From: a virus
DNA: 26,695 bases
Virus record (IMG/VR): IMGVR_UViG_3300030380_005869
Span: 7,332-34,026 of that record
Direction: 5' to 3' (one strand)
Shown here in pieces: positions 6,233-22,273 of this stretch. Made by a program: the position numbers and the translations under genes. Within the stretch, counting starts at the first letter, position 1. The number at the start of each line of letters is the position of its first letter. The notes under the pieces are model-generated. The model saw nothing but the letters and a program-made list of their open reading frames with translations. It was not told where the DNA came from and searched no databases.

Positions 6233-6919
6233 ATGGCACTAAGTACTGTTTCAGATGTTAAAAGTGTTATTGGTGTTGACATGTCCTCAACCGACGAAAC
6301 GGCAGTAACAAATATATTTATCAAGGCAGCTGATGCTGCAATTAAAAACTTTGTTGGTTATGAATTAGAGTATGCAACTGGAATTGTTGATACATTTGAT
6401 GGAAATAGCCAAGAAGAAATATACACAAGTGTTGCCCCTATAATATCTGTAACTTCTGTAGTAGAAGACGCAGTAACATTGACTGAGGGCAATCAAGAAC
6501 ATTATGTTGTATATAAATCCTTAGGTAAAATTAAAAAAACCGGAGAAAAACAATTTTCAAGTATAAGACTGCAAAACATAGTAGTTACCTATGTTGCTGG
6601 CTACTCAGATAGTGAAGCATCTGCAGAAAATATTCCAGTAGATATAAAACTTATAAGTGCTAGAGCTGCTGGTAAGTTATTTGTGGCTGCTGCCGCTTTA
6701 GGGTCTCAACAAAGCACAGGGCAAGTGGGAACTCATGCAGCAGACACTACAAACGATTCACAGTTTCAATTAGTAAAATCTGAGTCATTAGGAGACTATT
6801 CAGCAACTTACGAATCAGTCACAGAACTTTTAGATAATGAAATTTTGACTGATAAAGATAAACAAACACTATCAAAATATAAGAGACAATACTTCACATC
6901 AGCTCACATTTTAGACTAG
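6233..6919 (+). CDS. Head-tail connector protein, gp6-like
   Basis: The 228-residue product resembles the HK97 gp6/phiE125 gp8 adaptor family that docks under the portal ring. The N-terminus is helical (STVSDVKSVIGV, ETAVTNIFIKAADAAIKNFVGYELE), the usual family opening. It is followed by the strand-rich block VDTFDGNSQEEIYTSVAPIISV and the late YVAGYSD segment and helices (DIKLISARAAGKLFVAAAAL). The C-terminal third (residues 150-228) is longer than the minimal family fold. Position right after the capsid block fits this role. The start ATG at 6233 lies 10 bases after the preceding stop and no clear ribosome site is seen. Confidence 0.78.
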   Translation: MALSTVSDVKSVIGVDMSSTDETAVTNIFIKAADAAIKNFVGYELEYATGIVDTFDGNSQEEIYTSVAPIISVTSVVEDAVTLTEGNQEHYVVYKSLGKIKKTGEKQFSSIRLQNIVVTYVAGYSDSEASAENIPVDIKLISARAAGKLFVAAAALGSQQSTGQVGTHAADTTNDSQFQLVKSESLGDYSATYESVTELLDNEILTDKDKQTLSKYKRQYFTSAHILD

Positions 6920-6928
6920 AATATAACT

Positions 6929-7138
6929 ATGTCAGATAATTTAGAATTCAATAAATCACAGCGTAAAGCTTGGTTATCGGGAATAGATTTTGAAGTATTT
7001 GCAGAAGCAGTTATTGAACAAATGAACAGTCTTAGAATGCAAAAAGTTAACTTAGTGCAAGATATGGACGATATTGTCAATGATTATATGCAAGTATGCA
7101 AAAAGTATCCTATTAAAACCAAAAAAACAAAAAAATAA
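6929..7138 (+). CDS. Small unknown protein in head-completion region
   Basis: This 69-residue protein is mostly helical by composition (FEVFAEAVIEQMNSLRMQKVNLVQDMDDIVNDYMQ). It ends in a basic tail (KKYPIKTKKTKK). I do not recognise a family. It starts 9 bases after the connector gene and stops 3 bases before the zinc-ribbon gene, so it is in the same operon. Codon use and A-rich style match its neighbours, and it has no overlapping better candidate on the other strand. A structural or DNA-contacting role is only suggested by position and charge. Confidence 0.62.
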   Translation: MSDNLEFNKSQRKAWLSGIDFEVFAEAVIEQMNSLRMQKVNLVQDMDDIVNDYMQVCKKYPIKTKKTKK

Positions 7139-7141
7139 ATC

Positions 7142-7381
7142 GTGGCTCGTTACGATTATAAATGTTCAAAATGTGAGCATCATTTCGAAGTAGTACATTC
7201 AATCCATGAAGACCCTAAAATCAAATGTGAGAAATGCAAAGGTAAAGCTCAAAGACAAATTAGCACTCGAGTATATCTATATGGAACTGTTGGGGTTGAT
7301 TGGAATACTGACCCTTCTAAAGTTTCTCAATCAATGAAAGATAAAGCTAGAAAAGCTGCTAAACGGAAGCAGTCTTTTTAA
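7142..7381 (+). CDS. FmdB-type zinc-ribbon protein
   Basis: The 79-residue product opens ARYDYKCSKCEHHFEV and has two CxxC knuckles at Cys 8/11 and Cys 29/32. This is the pattern of the FmdB/CxxC putative regulatory family, small zinc ribbons often found in phages and bacteria. After the ribbon comes a conserved-looking RQISTRVYLYGTVGVDW segment and a basic C-terminus (KDKARKAAKRKQSF). The start is GTG at 7142, 4 bases after the previous stop; no ATG is available nearby in frame and no ribosome site is evident, so coupling to the upstream gene is likely. Its 3' end overlaps the leftward SET gene by 23 bases. The biochemical role is unknown; zinc binding is inferred. Confidence 0.8.
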   Translation: MARYDYKCSKCEHHFEVVHSIHEDPKIKCEKCKGKAQRQISTRVYLYGTVGVDWNTDPSKVSQSMKDKARKAAKRKQSF

Positions 7382-7694
7382 CATTATAAAGAGTATATTT
7401 TAGAGTTATCTCTTCATCTGGCATAATGTCAATTGATGTAATTAAATAATAGTAAGGACCTATCTTAATTAATTCACAATTAGGCTCTTCACTATGATTT
7501 ATAAATCCTCCTAAAGGAGTTCTTATTCTGTCGTTTGCAAAATCAGTATTATAGACATGACTACAACCTAAATTCATACCTTTTGATAAAGCAAAGGTAG
7601 CAAAAAGACCATATCCTTCAATAGGTGATTTTCTTATTTCAACTTCTGGTGGTAAAGGCCTGTAGTTTTTATCTTCTTCCATTTTCTCTATCAT
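7359..7694 (-). CDS. Compact SET-domain protein (putative protein-lysine methyltransferase)
   Basis: SET proteins transfer methyl groups from S-adenosylmethionine to lysines of proteins. This 111-residue product has the core SET signatures in order: IEGYGLFAT (residues 25-33), then RTPLGGFINHSEEPNC with the NHS and PN positions of the active-site/AdoMet motif (residues 66-72). DEEITLKYTLY follows at 93-103 and corresponds to the GEELTxDY motif and its catalytic Tyr. There is no Cys-rich post-SET zinc domain, and the fold would be near minimal size. It is the last gene of the leftward cassette and overlaps the 35-aa zinc-ribbon peptide by 26 bases, so its translation may be coupled. An in-frame ATG at codon 5 (7682) is an alternative start. 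The target is unknown; phage or host proteins are both possible. Confidence 0.82.
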   Translation of the reverse strand: MIEKMEEDKNYRPLPPEVEIRKSPIEGYGLFATFALSKGMNLGCSHVYNTDFANDRIRTPLGGFINHSEEPNCELIKIGPYYYLITSIDIMPDEEITLKYTLYNVKKTASV

Positions 7695-7776
7695 TTAATT
7701 TAAATAAACATGAATCACAAATAGTCAGTGCATCTGATTTCATAAGTTCATTTTTACACACTTTACAATTATACAT
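7669..7776 (-). CDS. Tiny 35-aa zinc-ribbon-like peptide
   Basis: Reading leftward from ATG 7776 gives MYNCKVCKNE at the start and TICDSCLFKL further on, ending GRR and TAA at 7671-7669. Two CxxC pairs (Cys 4/7 and Cys 20/23) in 35 residues fit a minimal zinc ribbon. A strong ribosome site AAGGAG lies 6 bases before the ATG, at 7788-7783. It begins 2 bases after the stop of the upstream gene and overlaps the start of the SET gene, as expected for a coupled operon. It is too short for ordinary gene callers. I do not recognise a family; zinc binding is inferred from the cysteines. Confidence 0.66.
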   Translation of the reverse strand: MYNCKVCKNELMKSDALTICDSCLFKLNDRENGRR

Positions 7777-7778
7777 AA

Positions 7779-7973
7779 CTAACTCCTTAATACATTGCCA
7801 CGAACTCGTGGTATTTTCTTTGGTGCATGTTGGTAGCACTTATTGTTGTGATTATACTTACTCATTATTTGCTCACAATCTTTTTCTTCGCATACTCTAT
7901 TTTCACCATAGACAACATTTTTTCTATTTCTACCTGTAGGCTTTGCTCCTGTCATATAAAGATTACTAGACAT
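7779..7973 (-). CDS. Small Cys/His (zinc-finger-like) protein
   Basis: The 64-residue product has a C-x4-C-x12-C-x2-H pattern (Cys 28, Cys 33, Cys 46, His 49) around CEQIMSKYNHNNKCYQH. This looks like the small RYN/KYN-type Cys-His modules seen in actinobacterial and phage proteins. Flanks are basic (TGRNRKN and PKKIPRVRG). The start chosen is the ATG at 7973, which shares its A with the TAA of the lysozyme gene (TAATG) and has an AGGAGG-type site 8 bases upstream; an ATG 21 bases earlier would be buried in the lysozyme gene and lacks this site. Nucleic acid binding is possible but inferred. Confidence 0.7.
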   Translation of the reverse strand: MSSNLYMTGAKPTGRNRKNVVYGENRVCEEKDCEQIMSKYNHNNKCYQHAPKKIPRVRGNVLRS

Positions 7974-8518
7974 TAATATCCCTCCTCTCTCCATCTTTTT
8001 TCAAAATATTGTGGATTACCCCAACACCATTTACTAGAGTTCCAGTCTCTAAAATCTTTTTTTGTATAAATATCTTCTGCTAAATGAGAAGCCATTTTTA
8101 TATTTATATAAGGTACAAACTGAGCTTTTTGAAATTTAAACCCTCCTGCAATAAAAGGTCCATCATGTAAATCATAAGGAATACCTTGATAAGTTAAAAC
8201 ATCTTGATTCCACATTGGCATATCAAACATTTCAGCAACCCAATTCCATGTATTAGGTATAAATTGCATTATTCCAGAATCATTATCTTCTTTTCTAAAT
8301 GCTGTATTTTTGCCTCTACTTTCACACCAACCAATTCTTAGTGCTTTATAATAATGTTTTTCATCATAATGCTCAACAATAAAAGGGACATGTTCAATCA
8401 TAGTAAAAGGCAATATATCAGTACATTCTTTAGTATTTTGAATTAATTCTTTGTTTTCTACTATAGGTACTTCTGGGGTACCAAAACTAGCCAAAAAAAT
8501 CATACAACTTGTTATCAT
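7973..8518 (-). CDS. Lysozyme-like lytic transglycosylase (probable endolysin or virion lysin)
   Basis: This 181-residue enzyme likely cleaves the glycan strands of peptidoglycan. The SLT/goose-lysozyme-like core is clear: LRIGWCESRG with catalytic Glu 66, then SGIMQFIPNTWNWVA (residues 81-95), and a late DWNSSKWCWG (158-167). Cys 65 and Cys 165 could pair. The first ~15 residues (MITSCMIFLASFG) are hydrophobic but nearly uncharged, so this could be a weak or unusual export signal; a classic lipobox is not evident. The gene lies opposite to the structural genes and has its own consensus promoter just upstream plus an AAGGA ribosome site 6 bases before the ATG. No holin is visible beside it. 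CES before the core is common in actinobacterial lysozymes. Confidence 0.82.
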   Translation of the reverse strand: MITSCMIFLASFGTPEVPIVENKELIQNTKECTDILPFTMIEHVPFIVEHYDEKHYYKALRIGWCESRGKNTAFRKEDNDSGIMQFIPNTWNWVAEMFDMPMWNQDVLTYQGIPYDLHDGPFIAGGFKFQKAQFVPYINIKMASHLAEDIYTKKDFRDWNSSKWCWGNPQYFEKRWREEGY

Positions 8519-8541
8519 ATTTTTCCTTTATTCATAACACC

Positions 8542-8570
8542 ATTGTATCTTATGATTTGGTTTTTGTCAA
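8542..8570 (-). promoter_or_regulatory. Consensus sigma70-type promoter for the lysozyme-SET operon
   Basis: On the minus strand TTGACA (8570-8565) is followed after exactly 17 bases by TACAAT (8547-8542), five of six matches to TATAAT. Transcription would start near 8535, leaving a short leader with an AAGGA site before the lysozyme ATG at 8518. The -35 box contains the TGA stop of the upstream 84-aa gene, so the operon can be expressed separately from that gene. Confidence 0.75.
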
Positions 8571-8821
8571 GGATTTATATTAATTGCGTTTTGAACAGCT
8601 TCGTTTTCAGAATTACCAGTTACAGATGTAAAGTAATCATTAACAAAACGACCATATTTATCTTGTTTTTGTATAAATATTTCTGCTTCCCAGCAGTTTG
8701 TATATTTATTCCAAGACAAGTTTATAGTTTTATCACCAATTTTCATTAGTTTTTGTAGCTCGTCTACAGCAATTATTTCGGGTTCTGCTACCAAAATAGC
8801 TTCTCCTTCTTTGTTACACAC
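8567..8821 (-). CDS. Small unknown protein, first gene of leftward cassette
   Basis: The 84-residue product has an N-terminal hydrophobic-acidic part (AILVAEPEIIAVDELQKLM) and a strand-rich part with Trp and aromatic residues (SWNKYTNCWEAEIFIQ, then YFTSVTGNSENEAVQNA). I do not recognise a family. Start choice is uncertain. GTG at 8821 lies only 5 bases after a perfect TATAAT, so the message could be leaderless. Alternatively TTG at 8794 has a good AAGGAG site 8 bases upstream (8808-8803), which would give 75 residues. The coding frame, promoter and position as the first leftward gene make it likely real. Confidence 0.6.
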   Translation of the reverse strand: MCNKEGEAILVAEPEIIAVDELQKLMKIGDKTINLSWNKYTNCWEAEIFIQKQDKYGRFVNDYFTSVTGNSENEAVQNAININP

Positions 8822-8825
8822 TCTT

Positions 8826-8831
8826 ATTATA
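8826..8831 (-). promoter_or_regulatory. TATAAT -10 box for the leftward 84-aa gene
   Basis: A perfect TATAAT reads leftward at 8831-8826. The position 17 bases upstream is TTTATT, a poor -35, so this may be a weak or activator-dependent promoter. Its expected start point (about 8819) falls on the GTG start codon. It lies in the same intergenic region as the strong rightward promoter, making a divergent control region of 104 bases. Confidence 0.45.
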
Positions 8832-8870
8832 GCACCTTTTGACAGAAAAATAAAAAAAATGAAAAAAAAC

Positions 8871-8899
8871 TTGACAATATTCTAGTATTATGGAATAAT
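8871..8899 (+). promoter_or_regulatory. Consensus promoter for the rightward regulator gene
   Basis: TTGACA at 8871-8876 is followed by a 17-base spacer and AATAAT at 8894-8899, five of six matches to TATAAT. Expected start is near 8906, giving a ~20-base leader that contains AGGAGG at 8916-8921 just before the ATG at 8926. Spacing and both boxes are close to ideal, so this is one of the strongest promoters in the window. Confidence 0.75.
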
Positions 8900-8925
8900 T
8901 GGTATAGAAACGAATAGGAGGATAA

Positions 8926-9642
8926 ATGAAACCAACGCTAGACCAAGCAGAGTTTCTATTTAAAAGATTCCCAGATAAAACCCTTAGAGAATGGGCAGAA
9001 GATTGGGAAATGTCTCATGAAAATGTAAGACTGATGAAAATCAAGCTAGGCGTACCTACTAGTAAAAAAGTAGATTACAACGCAGATATAGCTAGACAAA
9101 TAGTTGAATACATTAGAGAAGGAAAAGGTACTGTAAATACTGCTAGAACTTATGAACATTACAATTTTGGCAAAGTAACTTTTAAAAATTGGATGAAAAA
9201 GAATCCATCACTTGCAAATGAAGTTGATATTGCAACAAAGCAAGCTTATGAGAGAAAGCTAAATCCTACTCATAAACGATGTGCTACCACAGGAGAATGG
9301 CTACCTGTATCAGAGTTTTACAAAGACAAGAATACATTAGATGGATATTCTGTTCGAAGTAAAAAAGTTGTAAAAGATATGGCTCGTAAATATTATTATG
9401 ACAGAAATGTACCAGAGCCAACAGTGCAAGAAAAAATATGTTCTGGTGTTCCAGAGTTAGGGCCATTACCACAAGAGTATTTTGCAAAAAATACTAGAAG
9501 TGCAAGTGGGCTACAAACATATTCAAAGAAATTTCAAGGCTTATATCAAAAGTATTTAAGAGAAGGTTTTGATAGTGCTTTTGATATGGCTAAAAATGAA
9601 ACTTTATTGTATTTTAAAGAACTTGGATTTTCCCCTAAGTAG
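8926..9642 (+). CDS. Putative helix-turn-helix DNA-binding protein
   Basis: The 238-residue protein begins with a helix-turn-helix-like segment (KTLREWAEDWEMSHENVRLMK, residues 18-38, with LGVP after it). A second helical repeat at 54-100 (ARQIVEYIREGKGTV, then TFKNWMKKNPSLANEV) has a similar look. Residues 117-160 (KRCATTGEWLPVSEFYKD, then ARKYYYDRN) resemble the small zinc region of phage endonuclease VII-like proteins, but only one Cys remains, so it seems degenerate. The C-terminus is helical. The gene has a consensus promoter, a perfect AGGAGG site and its own terminator, so it forms a one-gene transcription unit. It may control the divergent cassette; that is inference. Alternatives are a homing-type or packaging-related DNA-binding protein. 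Confidence 0.6.
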   Translation: MKPTLDQAEFLFKRFPDKTLREWAEDWEMSHENVRLMKIKLGVPTSKKVDYNADIARQIVEYIREGKGTVNTARTYEHYNFGKVTFKNWMKKNPSLANEVDIATKQAYERKLNPTHKRCATTGEWLPVSEFYKDKNTLDGYSVRSKKVVKDMARKYYYDRNVPEPTVQEKICSGVPELGPLPQEYFAKNTRSASGLQTYSKKFQGLYQKYLREGFDSAFDMAKNETLLYFKELGFSPK

Positions 9643-9665
9643 TACTAATACATTAAAGTAAGATG

Positions 9666-9692
9666 CCCCCTCTGCTGAGGGGGTTTTCTTTT
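9666..9692 (+). terminator. Strong intrinsic terminator
   Basis: CCCCCTC (9666-9672) pairs with GAGGGGG (9677-9683) across a TGCT loop, followed by a T-rich run TTTTCTTTT at 9684-9692. It lies 24 bases after the stop of the regulator gene and closes that unit, keeping its strong promoter from driving the tail genes. Confidence 0.9.
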
Positions 9693-9700
9693 GGTATAAT
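9692..9700 (+). promoter_or_regulatory. Extended -10 promoter for the tail genes
   Basis: TGGTATAAT (9692-9700) is a perfect TATAAT with the TGn extension. It lies directly after the terminator, using its last T. No -35 is needed for this class and none is seen. The predicted start point about 7 bases downstream coincides with the ATG at 9707, so the first tail-module message may be leaderless. No ribosome site is present before that ATG. Confidence 0.62.
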
Positions 9701-9706
9701 ATCAGT

Positions 9707-10048
9707 ATGCCAAAAGTACCAACATCATTATTAAATGAAACAATTTCAATACAAAGTCTTACTGGTTCTGCAGTTGATGACAGGGGATTATCTACAGCTA
9801 GTTTTGGTTCTGGAACATCAGTTCAAGCAAAATTAATTGAAGTAGGTGGTTCTATTGAAAGCGAAACAGAAGGAAGAATAGAAAGAAATGAAGAATTTAA
9901 AGTAATTGTTCCGTCTTCCACTACAGTAAGTCTTGCAGATAGAGTTGTTTTTAACTCAACAAATTACAATATAAGAAATGTAAAATCTGTCAAAGACCGT
10001 TTTGGAAATGAATTTTATAAAGAACTTCGTATAGACTCTGGATTCTAA
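9707..10048 (+). CDS. Head closure (head-tail joining) protein
   Basis: The 113-residue protein opens LLNETISIQSLTGSAVDDRGL, the typical start of SPP1 gp16/HK97 gp7-like head closure proteins. It continues with alternating strands (VQAKLIEVGG, FKVIVPSSTTVSLADRVVF, YNIRNVKSVKD), as expected for their small beta-barrel. This protein would seal the head below the connector ring. It is separated from the gp6-like connector by the accessory cassette, whereas in most phages the two are adjacent. The ATG lacks a ribosome site and sits at the predicted transcription start. Its stop overlaps the next ATG by one base (TAATG). Confidence 0.75.
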   Translation: MPKVPTSLLNETISIQSLTGSAVDDRGLSTASFGSGTSVQAKLIEVGGSIESETEGRIERNEEFKVIVPSSTTVSLADRVVFNSTNYNIRNVKSVKDRFGNEFYKELRIDSGF

Positions 10049-21312: not shown

Positions 21313-21518
21313 TGTCGTTTGAATATAAATACGAAGAAAAAACTGTTACTAATGAAGAAAAACTTCAAGAGTTAGAAGATTACTTAAGAGCTCTTGAAGA
21401 AGTTCATAGAAAACAGTCAGCTGAAGAAACACCGGATGCAGAAATAATATCTAATCTTGAAACAGAGATTGAAGCTAAAAGAACTGAATTCGAAAGTCTT
21501 GGAGGAACATTCGATTGA
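21312..21518 (+). CDS. Small coiled-coil protein A
   Basis: The 68-residue product is charged and helical, with two likely coiled-coil helices (NEEKLQELEDYLRALEEVHRK and ISNLETEIEAKRTEFESLGG). It shares its opening MSFEYKYEEKTV with the later 64-aa protein at 22273 (MSYNYEYLSDEK) and has the same two-helix layout with an acidic turn containing DAEII. It overlaps the fibre gene by one base (TAATG-like) and the following gene by 4 bases. Such small proteins after a fibre gene could be fibre chaperones, but nothing directly shows this. Confidence 0.7.
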   Translation: MSFEYKYEEKTVTNEEKLQELEDYLRALEEVHRKQSAEETPDAEIISNLETEIEAKRTEFESLGGTFD

Positions 21519-22273
21519 AATATTCTTTGGGAGGCAAACAATTTATTGAATTCAAGACTGATGTAAAAGGTCTCGAAGAAATATCACCAGTAAAACCATC
21601 TAAGTTTTTTTTACCTAGATGGTTTAAAAACATGCCAGAATCAATTGAAATGCCAGCAGTTCATGAAAAGGGTAAACCAAACTACTTTGGTAAAAAAGGA
21701 GAAACAGCCAAAAAACATACTGGGGGCACTGTCAAAAGATGCCCTGCAATAGTAGACCTTATAACAGAGGGGTTTATTATTCCAATGTGGTGTGATTTTC
21801 TAATTCAAAGAGATATGGAAACTTTAGAGTGGGACAATAAAAATTTTAGTTACGGAATAGATTTTCATAAAAAAGAACAAATAAAAGGTTGGGATTTAAA
21901 AAAAACTGATTTTCCAGAAGGAGTTAAATTTATTAATCCTTGGAGAATATATACACCAAAAGGCTATTCAGTAATGTTTATGACACCTACATATCAATTT
22001 GAAAAAAGATTTACGGTTTTACCCGGAATTGTAGAAACTGACAGTTATCATCACATAAACTTTCCTTCTATCTGGCACACGACTAAAGATGCTATAATAA
22101 ACAGAGGTACACCATTCATTCAAGTTATTCCTTTCAAAAGAGATGACTGGGAATATGAAACATCCCAAATGAATGACAAAGACTTAGATTTTGATGCGAG
22201 GGAAAAATTAGAACTTAGTACTAAGTTCAAAAACGCTTATAGAAATATAGTAACAAGGAGAAACAAGAGCTAA
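21515..22273 (+). CDS. Unknown protein with dUTPase-like sequence features
   Basis: This 252-residue protein has no signal peptide or membrane segment. The first half contains MPAVH, KRCPAIVDLITEGFIIPMWCDFLIQ; the second half holds INPWRIYTPKGYSVMFMTP (139-157), LPGIVETDSYHHINFPS (169-185) and INRGTPFIQVIPFKRDDW (195-212). That second half has the order and look of trimeric dUTPase/dCTP deaminase motifs (PPGYSA, GVIDxDYxGxI, GDRIAQL), but the catalytic signatures are not fully kept, so a fold relative rather than an active nucleotidase is likely. Similar proteins occur in marine phage tail regions. The start ATT... is not used; the TTG-overlap frame gives MKYSLGGKQF from 21515, overlapping the preceding gene by 4 bases. 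Function is unknown. Confidence 0.58.
   Translation: MKYSLGGKQFIEFKTDVKGLEEISPVKPSKFFLPRWFKNMPESIEMPAVHEKGKPNYFGKKGETAKKHTGGTVKRCPAIVDLITEGFIIPMWCDFLIQRDMETLEWDNKNFSYGIDFHKKEQIKGWDLKKTDFPEGVKFINPWRIYTPKGYSVMFMTPTYQFEKRFTVLPGIVETDSYHHINFPSIWHTTKDAIINRGTPFIQVIPFKRDDWEYETSQMNDKDLDFDAREKLELSTKFKNAYRNIVTRRNKS

Follow-up and report, generated by a model that had tools for sequence, protein, structure and literature searches.

The accessory genes of phages are commonly envisaged as part of early regions or as dispersed single-gene morons, and canonical phage early control regions place divergent promoters between the gene of a DNA-binding protein and the early genes. We analysed a 26,695-nt stretch of viral DNA (the window; positions 7332-34026 of IMG/VR record IMGVR_UViG_3300030380_005869, a 34-kb contig referred to as G000), in which the interval 7359-9706 holds five leftward genes and one rightward gene, flanked by connector and zinc-ribbon genes on one side and the head-closure gene on the other (Table 1). 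The leftward genes encode a 75-aa protein, a lysozyme-like lytic transglycosylase (SLT), two small zinc-type proteins and a SET-domain protein, while the rightward gene encodes a helix-turn-helix (HTH) protein of the DNA-binding type. From sequence comparison we propose that the interval is probably an early accessory island of the host-takeover type that keeps a constant position within the operon of late head-tail genes.

Prophage moron and accessory loci are one described arrangement of this kind, and one example lies antisense to the lytic genes and has its own promoter (PMC7067206). The interval resembles such loci in having its own promoters and terminator, in using the opposite strand, and in its variable cargo and horizontal exchange; it differs in that the core is fixed and co-linear clade-wide, that it is a multi-gene divergent unit, and that its regulation is conserved. 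The transglycosylase can be compared with Tgl of staphylococcal kayviruses, a secreted transglycosylase that has a host-type early promoter and is distinct from the late LysK (PMC7150955). We liken the two by role and promoter and not by sequence homology (PMC7150955): each appears to be a phage transglycosylase apart from the main late endolysin, with a host-sigma-type early promoter ahead of its gene. However, the Tgl gene neighbours the lysis module and its product carries a signal peptide, whereas the SLT gene lies in the head-tail operon or in an early region and its product has only a short hydrophobic N-terminus.

Conservation of the interval and of its regulatory signals

A capsid scan gave 80 related contigs. 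Of these, 38 are relatives from the window's clade whose sequence spans the site, 12 come from a sister clade, and 30 were unresolved, mostly because of truncation. The core of the unit (SLT and HTH, with the 75-aa gene in most) is present and co-linear in all 38 of the spanning relatives. Variation among them is confined to the distal genes, namely SET and the small open reading frames (ORFs); in the sister clade the site is empty or holds HTH only. A second scan, with an SLT profile, brought in more relatives: deeper ones that share this layout, at capsid identities as low as about 59%, and others in which SLT is placed differently. The initial annotation had read the interval as moron-like and had named co-linear presence in all relatives as the outcome that would tell against this; for the core, this is the outcome we found. 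Absence with intact flanks occurs only in more distant relatives, not in close ones.

On re-checking, the gene layout, coordinates, promoters, terminator and restart box given by that annotation were all confirmed, and we add to them a third promoter that would feed the 75-aa gene. The two consensus promoters, ahead of SLT and HTH, match the consensus at 11 of 12 positions each and are the best-scoring pair among 23 hits in the region scanned; because 17.4 hits are expected by chance in sequence of 35% GC, single weaker hits are uninformative. To examine their conservation we scored the 100 nt upstream of each gene (matches of 12, plus 2 for TGn) at 24 loci, namely that of the window and those of 23 relatives, a number of which are close to one another. 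A score of at least 11 was reached upstream of SLT in 96% of the loci (2.0% in shuffles), upstream of HTH in 88% (3.7%) and upstream of the 75-aa gene in 71% (1.6%). For the major capsid protein (MCP), connector and four other structural genes of the same loci the figure was 0%, and we regard the two promoters as real.

The predicted terminator (9665-9684) and restart promoter are likewise both present. In 22 of 22 loci (0.0 expected) the head-closure gene is preceded by a TGnTATAAT box with the start codon 5-7 nt beyond it; none of nine other genes tested has this arrangement, and in all cassette relatives listed a stem-loop and T run precede this box. Exact TTGACA was found upstream of head closure in none of the 22 loci. 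Since the 6-nt spacing puts the transcript start at the ATG, the head-closure mRNA looks leaderless.

The TTGACA/extended -10 class of promoter is strongly enriched in two genomes. G001 has 19 sites where 1.4 are expected. Of these, 17 fall in the stretch from the left-hand gene block to TerL, one falls within the minus-strand block on the left, and the last, in the cassette, is the sole site of the class in the structural region. G002 also has 19 sites (3.0 expected): 14 left of TerL, three in the cassette and two weak ones far to the right. These distributions support an early-type expression of the cassette, with the tail operon belonging to a separate promoter class. Expression in a different time window from the virion genes, as initially suggested, is now backed by comparative evidence.

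Locations of the genes in relatives and gene trees

All 16 genomes tested carry a single SLT copy, but its place differs by lineage. In G031, G032, G033, G035 and G037 the interval between connector and head closure (the slot) contains HTH, pointing the same way as the late genes, but no SLT; in G035 a zinc ribbon is there too. In these genomes SLT lies about 25-31 kb from MCP. The SLT gene is upstream of the SSB gene in G031 and near SSB in G037, where a gene like that of the 75-aa protein (hidden Markov model E 1e-4) lies directly 5' of it. In G034 the connector abuts head closure and the whole divergent unit is found in the early region instead, with the HTH homologue (profile E 4e-32) leftward and a 77-aa ORF, SLT, a CxxC protein and SET rightward. 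The unit of G034 resembles a canonical divergent early control region, whereas that of the window clade is embedded among virion genes. In G041 and G043, SLT and SET come after the major tail protein, and homologues of the 35-aa CxxC protein stand beside SLT in other contexts as well (L159, 75%; L235, E 4e-16). No SLT was found in 13 sister contigs, many of which are fragments without the early region, and we did not use this absence.

A single branch of the connector tree separates all 25 cassette rows from the rest (100/99; present in all 200 bootstrap trees), which would give the cassette arrangement one origin. In the SLT tree the slot copies need at least three changes and early copies are nested among them; L174, for example, groups with five slot copies (100/100).

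The slot of two deeper relatives carries further minus-strand genes: methylases of the C5 cytosine (PF00145) and MT-A70 types at L240:1169-3312, and a Dcm-like ORF and a PAPS-reductase-like ORF at L241:5542-9262. In sister phages (L102:861-1545; G009 40139-41068) SET and an HNH protein occur together on the late strand upstream of TerL, joined in G009 by a zinc ribbon; this is another SET location.

The early-island reading and its alternatives

How might such a unit work within a virion operon? We suggest that host-sigma-type promoters (TTGACA, 17 nt, TGn-extended -10) would transcribe the leftward genes early in infection, yielding the 75-aa protein, the transglycosylase, the small zinc proteins and the SET protein, with the HTH protein transcribed divergently, also early. 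The terminator 3' of the HTH gene would end that transcript, and the head-closure and tail operon would start from its own extended -10 promoter, which lacks a -35 box. The position of the unit differs between lineages, the same genes lying in the early region of relatives, and the SLT of the slot seems to have been exchanged with early-region copies more than once. SLT is likely an early-made accessory wall enzyme alongside the late amidase, as Tgl is in kayviruses; the HTH protein would bind DNA, possibly its own divergent promoter region; and SET and the distal genes are likely interchangeable cargo for takeover or anti-defence. A divergent unit of several genes, equipped with early-type promoters, would then hold a fixed, insulated place in a virion operon while its genes are swapped with early-region copies. 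If transcription confirms this, the unit is a conserved exception to the strict early/late block layout of these phages, and the slot would be a predictable place for takeover or anti-defence genes in uncultured marine phages.

Several points weigh against the early-island reading. Most contigs are fragments, and genes were called by a simple purpose-made caller. Of four genomes, only two show a clear enrichment of the promoter class; G000 (6 sites, 1.8 expected) and G003 (5 sites, 2.2 expected) are near expectation and add no weight, and the label "early region" rests on the promoter class and on neighbours such as SSB. The deeper cassette relatives (L132-L163) show no evident promoter of this type directly upstream of SLT, and SLT itself, with its short hydrophobic stretch and no clear signal peptide, is only putatively exported. 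The capsid tree needs at least three changes compared with one in the connector tree. This disagreement points to recombination, and on the simplest reading the arrangement would be old and single, the SLT allele exchanged, and the capsid and connector genes recombined too.

A classical moron, a recent, dispensable and self-transcribed insert in a late operon, would also explain the opposite strand, the variable distal genes, the exchange of SLT alleles and the possession of own promoters and a terminator, which is borne out at the level of sequence signals and conservation. Yet the core is co-linear in all covered relatives and in deeper ones, the connector tree suggests a single origin, and the SET and zinc-ribbon genes share 23 nt tail-to-tail (7359-7381), comparable overlaps being present in several relatives (e.g. 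L009). We therefore consider a classical moron improbable and, for the core, largely refuted; what stands of the initial suggestion is a divergent unit, apparently transcribed separately from its own signals, whose genes move between phages and loci, and not the dispensable recent insertion. The same annotation had attached a lysis label to the cassette, which would make SLT a phage endolysin expressed from its own promoter. Its SLT domain with an invariant Glu would fit this, but in the three relatives long enough for a survey of lysis genes (G002, G003 and G004; the window's own record stops before that region) a separate Amidase_2 endolysin is encoded on the late strand about 34 kb downstream. 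The amidase of G002 carries a PG_binding domain too, and after it come DUF5675 and an r1t-type holin, the only holin annotated in the three. Because of these amidases SLT is unlikely to be the main endolysin, in the sense of the chief lysis enzyme encoded with a holin, a description that it does not fit; in other relatives, moreover, it lies among early genes. It is probably not the main lysis gene and may have an auxiliary wall role, as in Tgl, and we judge a lysis cassette very improbable.

The HTH protein could instead be a displaced small terminase subunit (TerS), making the interval a packaging locus that captured leftward genes. Residues 48-110 of its model match the DNA-binding domain of Sf6 TerS (VIA Z 9.5, root mean square deviation 1.7, 60 residues), members of the family give weak Pfam matches to TerS families (PF20901 in four, PF10668 in three), no recognised TerS lies upstream of TerL, and in several relatives HTH runs in the direction of the late genes. 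HTH domains of this kind are common, however; in the window clade the gene has an early-type promoter and its own terminator, in G034 it lies in the early region, and 9 of 13 sister contigs, possibly fragments, have no HTH match, all of which leaves us regarding a terminase origin as unlikely. A different history with the same function is one in which the slot represents the original arrangement, the genes having left it for the early region in relatives. The capsid tree permits one ancestral state with several losses, while the connector tree puts all slot bearers on one branch and unrooted trees cannot decide; we hold this history to be possible but less than probable. Could the slot serve as a docking site, whose divergent early promoters and terminator/restart element allow cargo to be exchanged without upsetting virion expression, and whose two-HTH protein controls the divergent promoters? 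We offer this as a rather doubtful suggestion.

Proteins, features and host

The SLT family matches PF01464 in 22 of 26 members at E<=0.01 (best 2e-7), the window protein scoring 22.0 bits, above the gathering score of 21.3, and Glu 66 in WCESRG is invariant. Four cysteines (5, 32, 65 and 165) are also invariant, suggesting disulphides. A tblastn comparison of the SLT and HTH proteins with an isolated-phage collection gave no match, an SLT scan of bacterial genomes found none, and a PDB sequence search with SLT returned no credible relative. A mini-ORF ahead of SLT in some relatives was dropped, as its frame is not conserved.

The HTH protein comprises a sigma70 region-4.2-like HTH (1-47), the Sf6 TerS-like HTH (48-110) and two degenerate treble-clef units, whose cysteine pairs are kept in L053, L057-L060, L068, L071 and L077 and largely lost in the window clade. 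Matches to the sigma-70 region 4 profile PF04545 occur in 7 of the 26 members (lowest E 0.0042) and stay below the cut-off where shown; the homologues L068 and L071 contain the motif SRERVRQI. Foldseek gave no match at E<=0.001 for the HTH model. The 75-aa protein (g84) was called as ORF 8567-8821; TTG 8794 is the better start, with a Shine-Dalgarno AAGGAG and with the homologue alignment beginning there. Five strands and a helix are predicted (AF2 pLDDT 91). Foldseek gave no match at E<=0.001 and only weak PUR/PC4-like matches, and the best VIA Z of 6.3 is in the range of common arrangements, with no clear fold match. The SET protein scores 36 bits against PF00856 (gathering 22.4), the best stretch being profile positions 63-104 of 105, and the 64-aa zinc-type protein has no Pfam family.

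Table 1. Features of the interval 7359-9706 and its flanks (window positions)
Feature	Position	Strand	Evidence or remark
Head-tail connector/adaptor, left flank	6233..6919	+	phrog_442 E 4e-18, PF05135
Small late-strand gene, 69 aa, in connector-zinc ribbon gap	6929..7138	+	position conserved in relatives
FmdB-type zinc ribbon protein	7142..7381	+	TIGR02605 E 1e-14, PF09723
SET-domain protein, 111 aa	7359..7694	-	PF00856 E 1e-8, phrog_28741 E 1e-21; variable in relatives
CxxC...CxxC protein, 35 aa	7669..7776	-	homologues adjoin SLT in other contexts
Small zinc-type protein, 64 aa	7779..7973	-	related genes close to SLT elsewhere
Lysozyme-like lytic transglycosylase (SLT), 181 aa	7973..8518	-	PF01464; catalytic-type Glu in invariant WCESRG
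Promoter into SLT, TTGACA-17-TACAAT	8542..8570	-	consensus scan and conservation
Small protein (g84), 75 aa	8567..8794	-	homologue alignment; AF2 model
Third promoter, extended -10 box TGCTATAAT, into 75-aa gene	8826..8834	-	
Promoter into HTH gene, TTGACA-17-AATAAT, TGn ahead of -10	8871..8899	+	
DNA-binding-type (HTH) protein, 238 aa	8926..9642	+	
Intrinsic terminator 3' of HTH gene	9665..9692	+	stem-loop and T run
Restart promoter, extended -10 box TGGTATAAT	9692..9700	+	6 nt 5' of head-closure ATG
Head closure/completion protein, right flank	9707..10048	+	PF05521, phrog_793, weak E-values

No Rfam family was found in the interval and no PADLOC defence family among the proteins tested; DNA-level comparison with isolated phages gave nothing useful, with a single 52-bp match (88.5%). 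The capsid relatives in cellular genomes are mostly Actinobacteria (33-41% identity). Together with the r1t-type holin and the leaderless-looking start this suggests an actinobacterial host, which is a guess; the phage GC of 35% is near the value reported for Actinomarinales, about 32.5% (PMC7771536). A search of 19 loci for tRNAs that could assign the host found none.

TerL of G000 is split by an N run at about 7310-7330 (L088, the left edge of the window), apparently a scaffold gap, and both halves match the TerL of G001. A phrog_7084 gene lies in the tail region of the window (21515-22273), and in L014 (6914-7657) and similar relatives a gene resembling it by eye sits between the 69-aa gene and the zinc ribbon.

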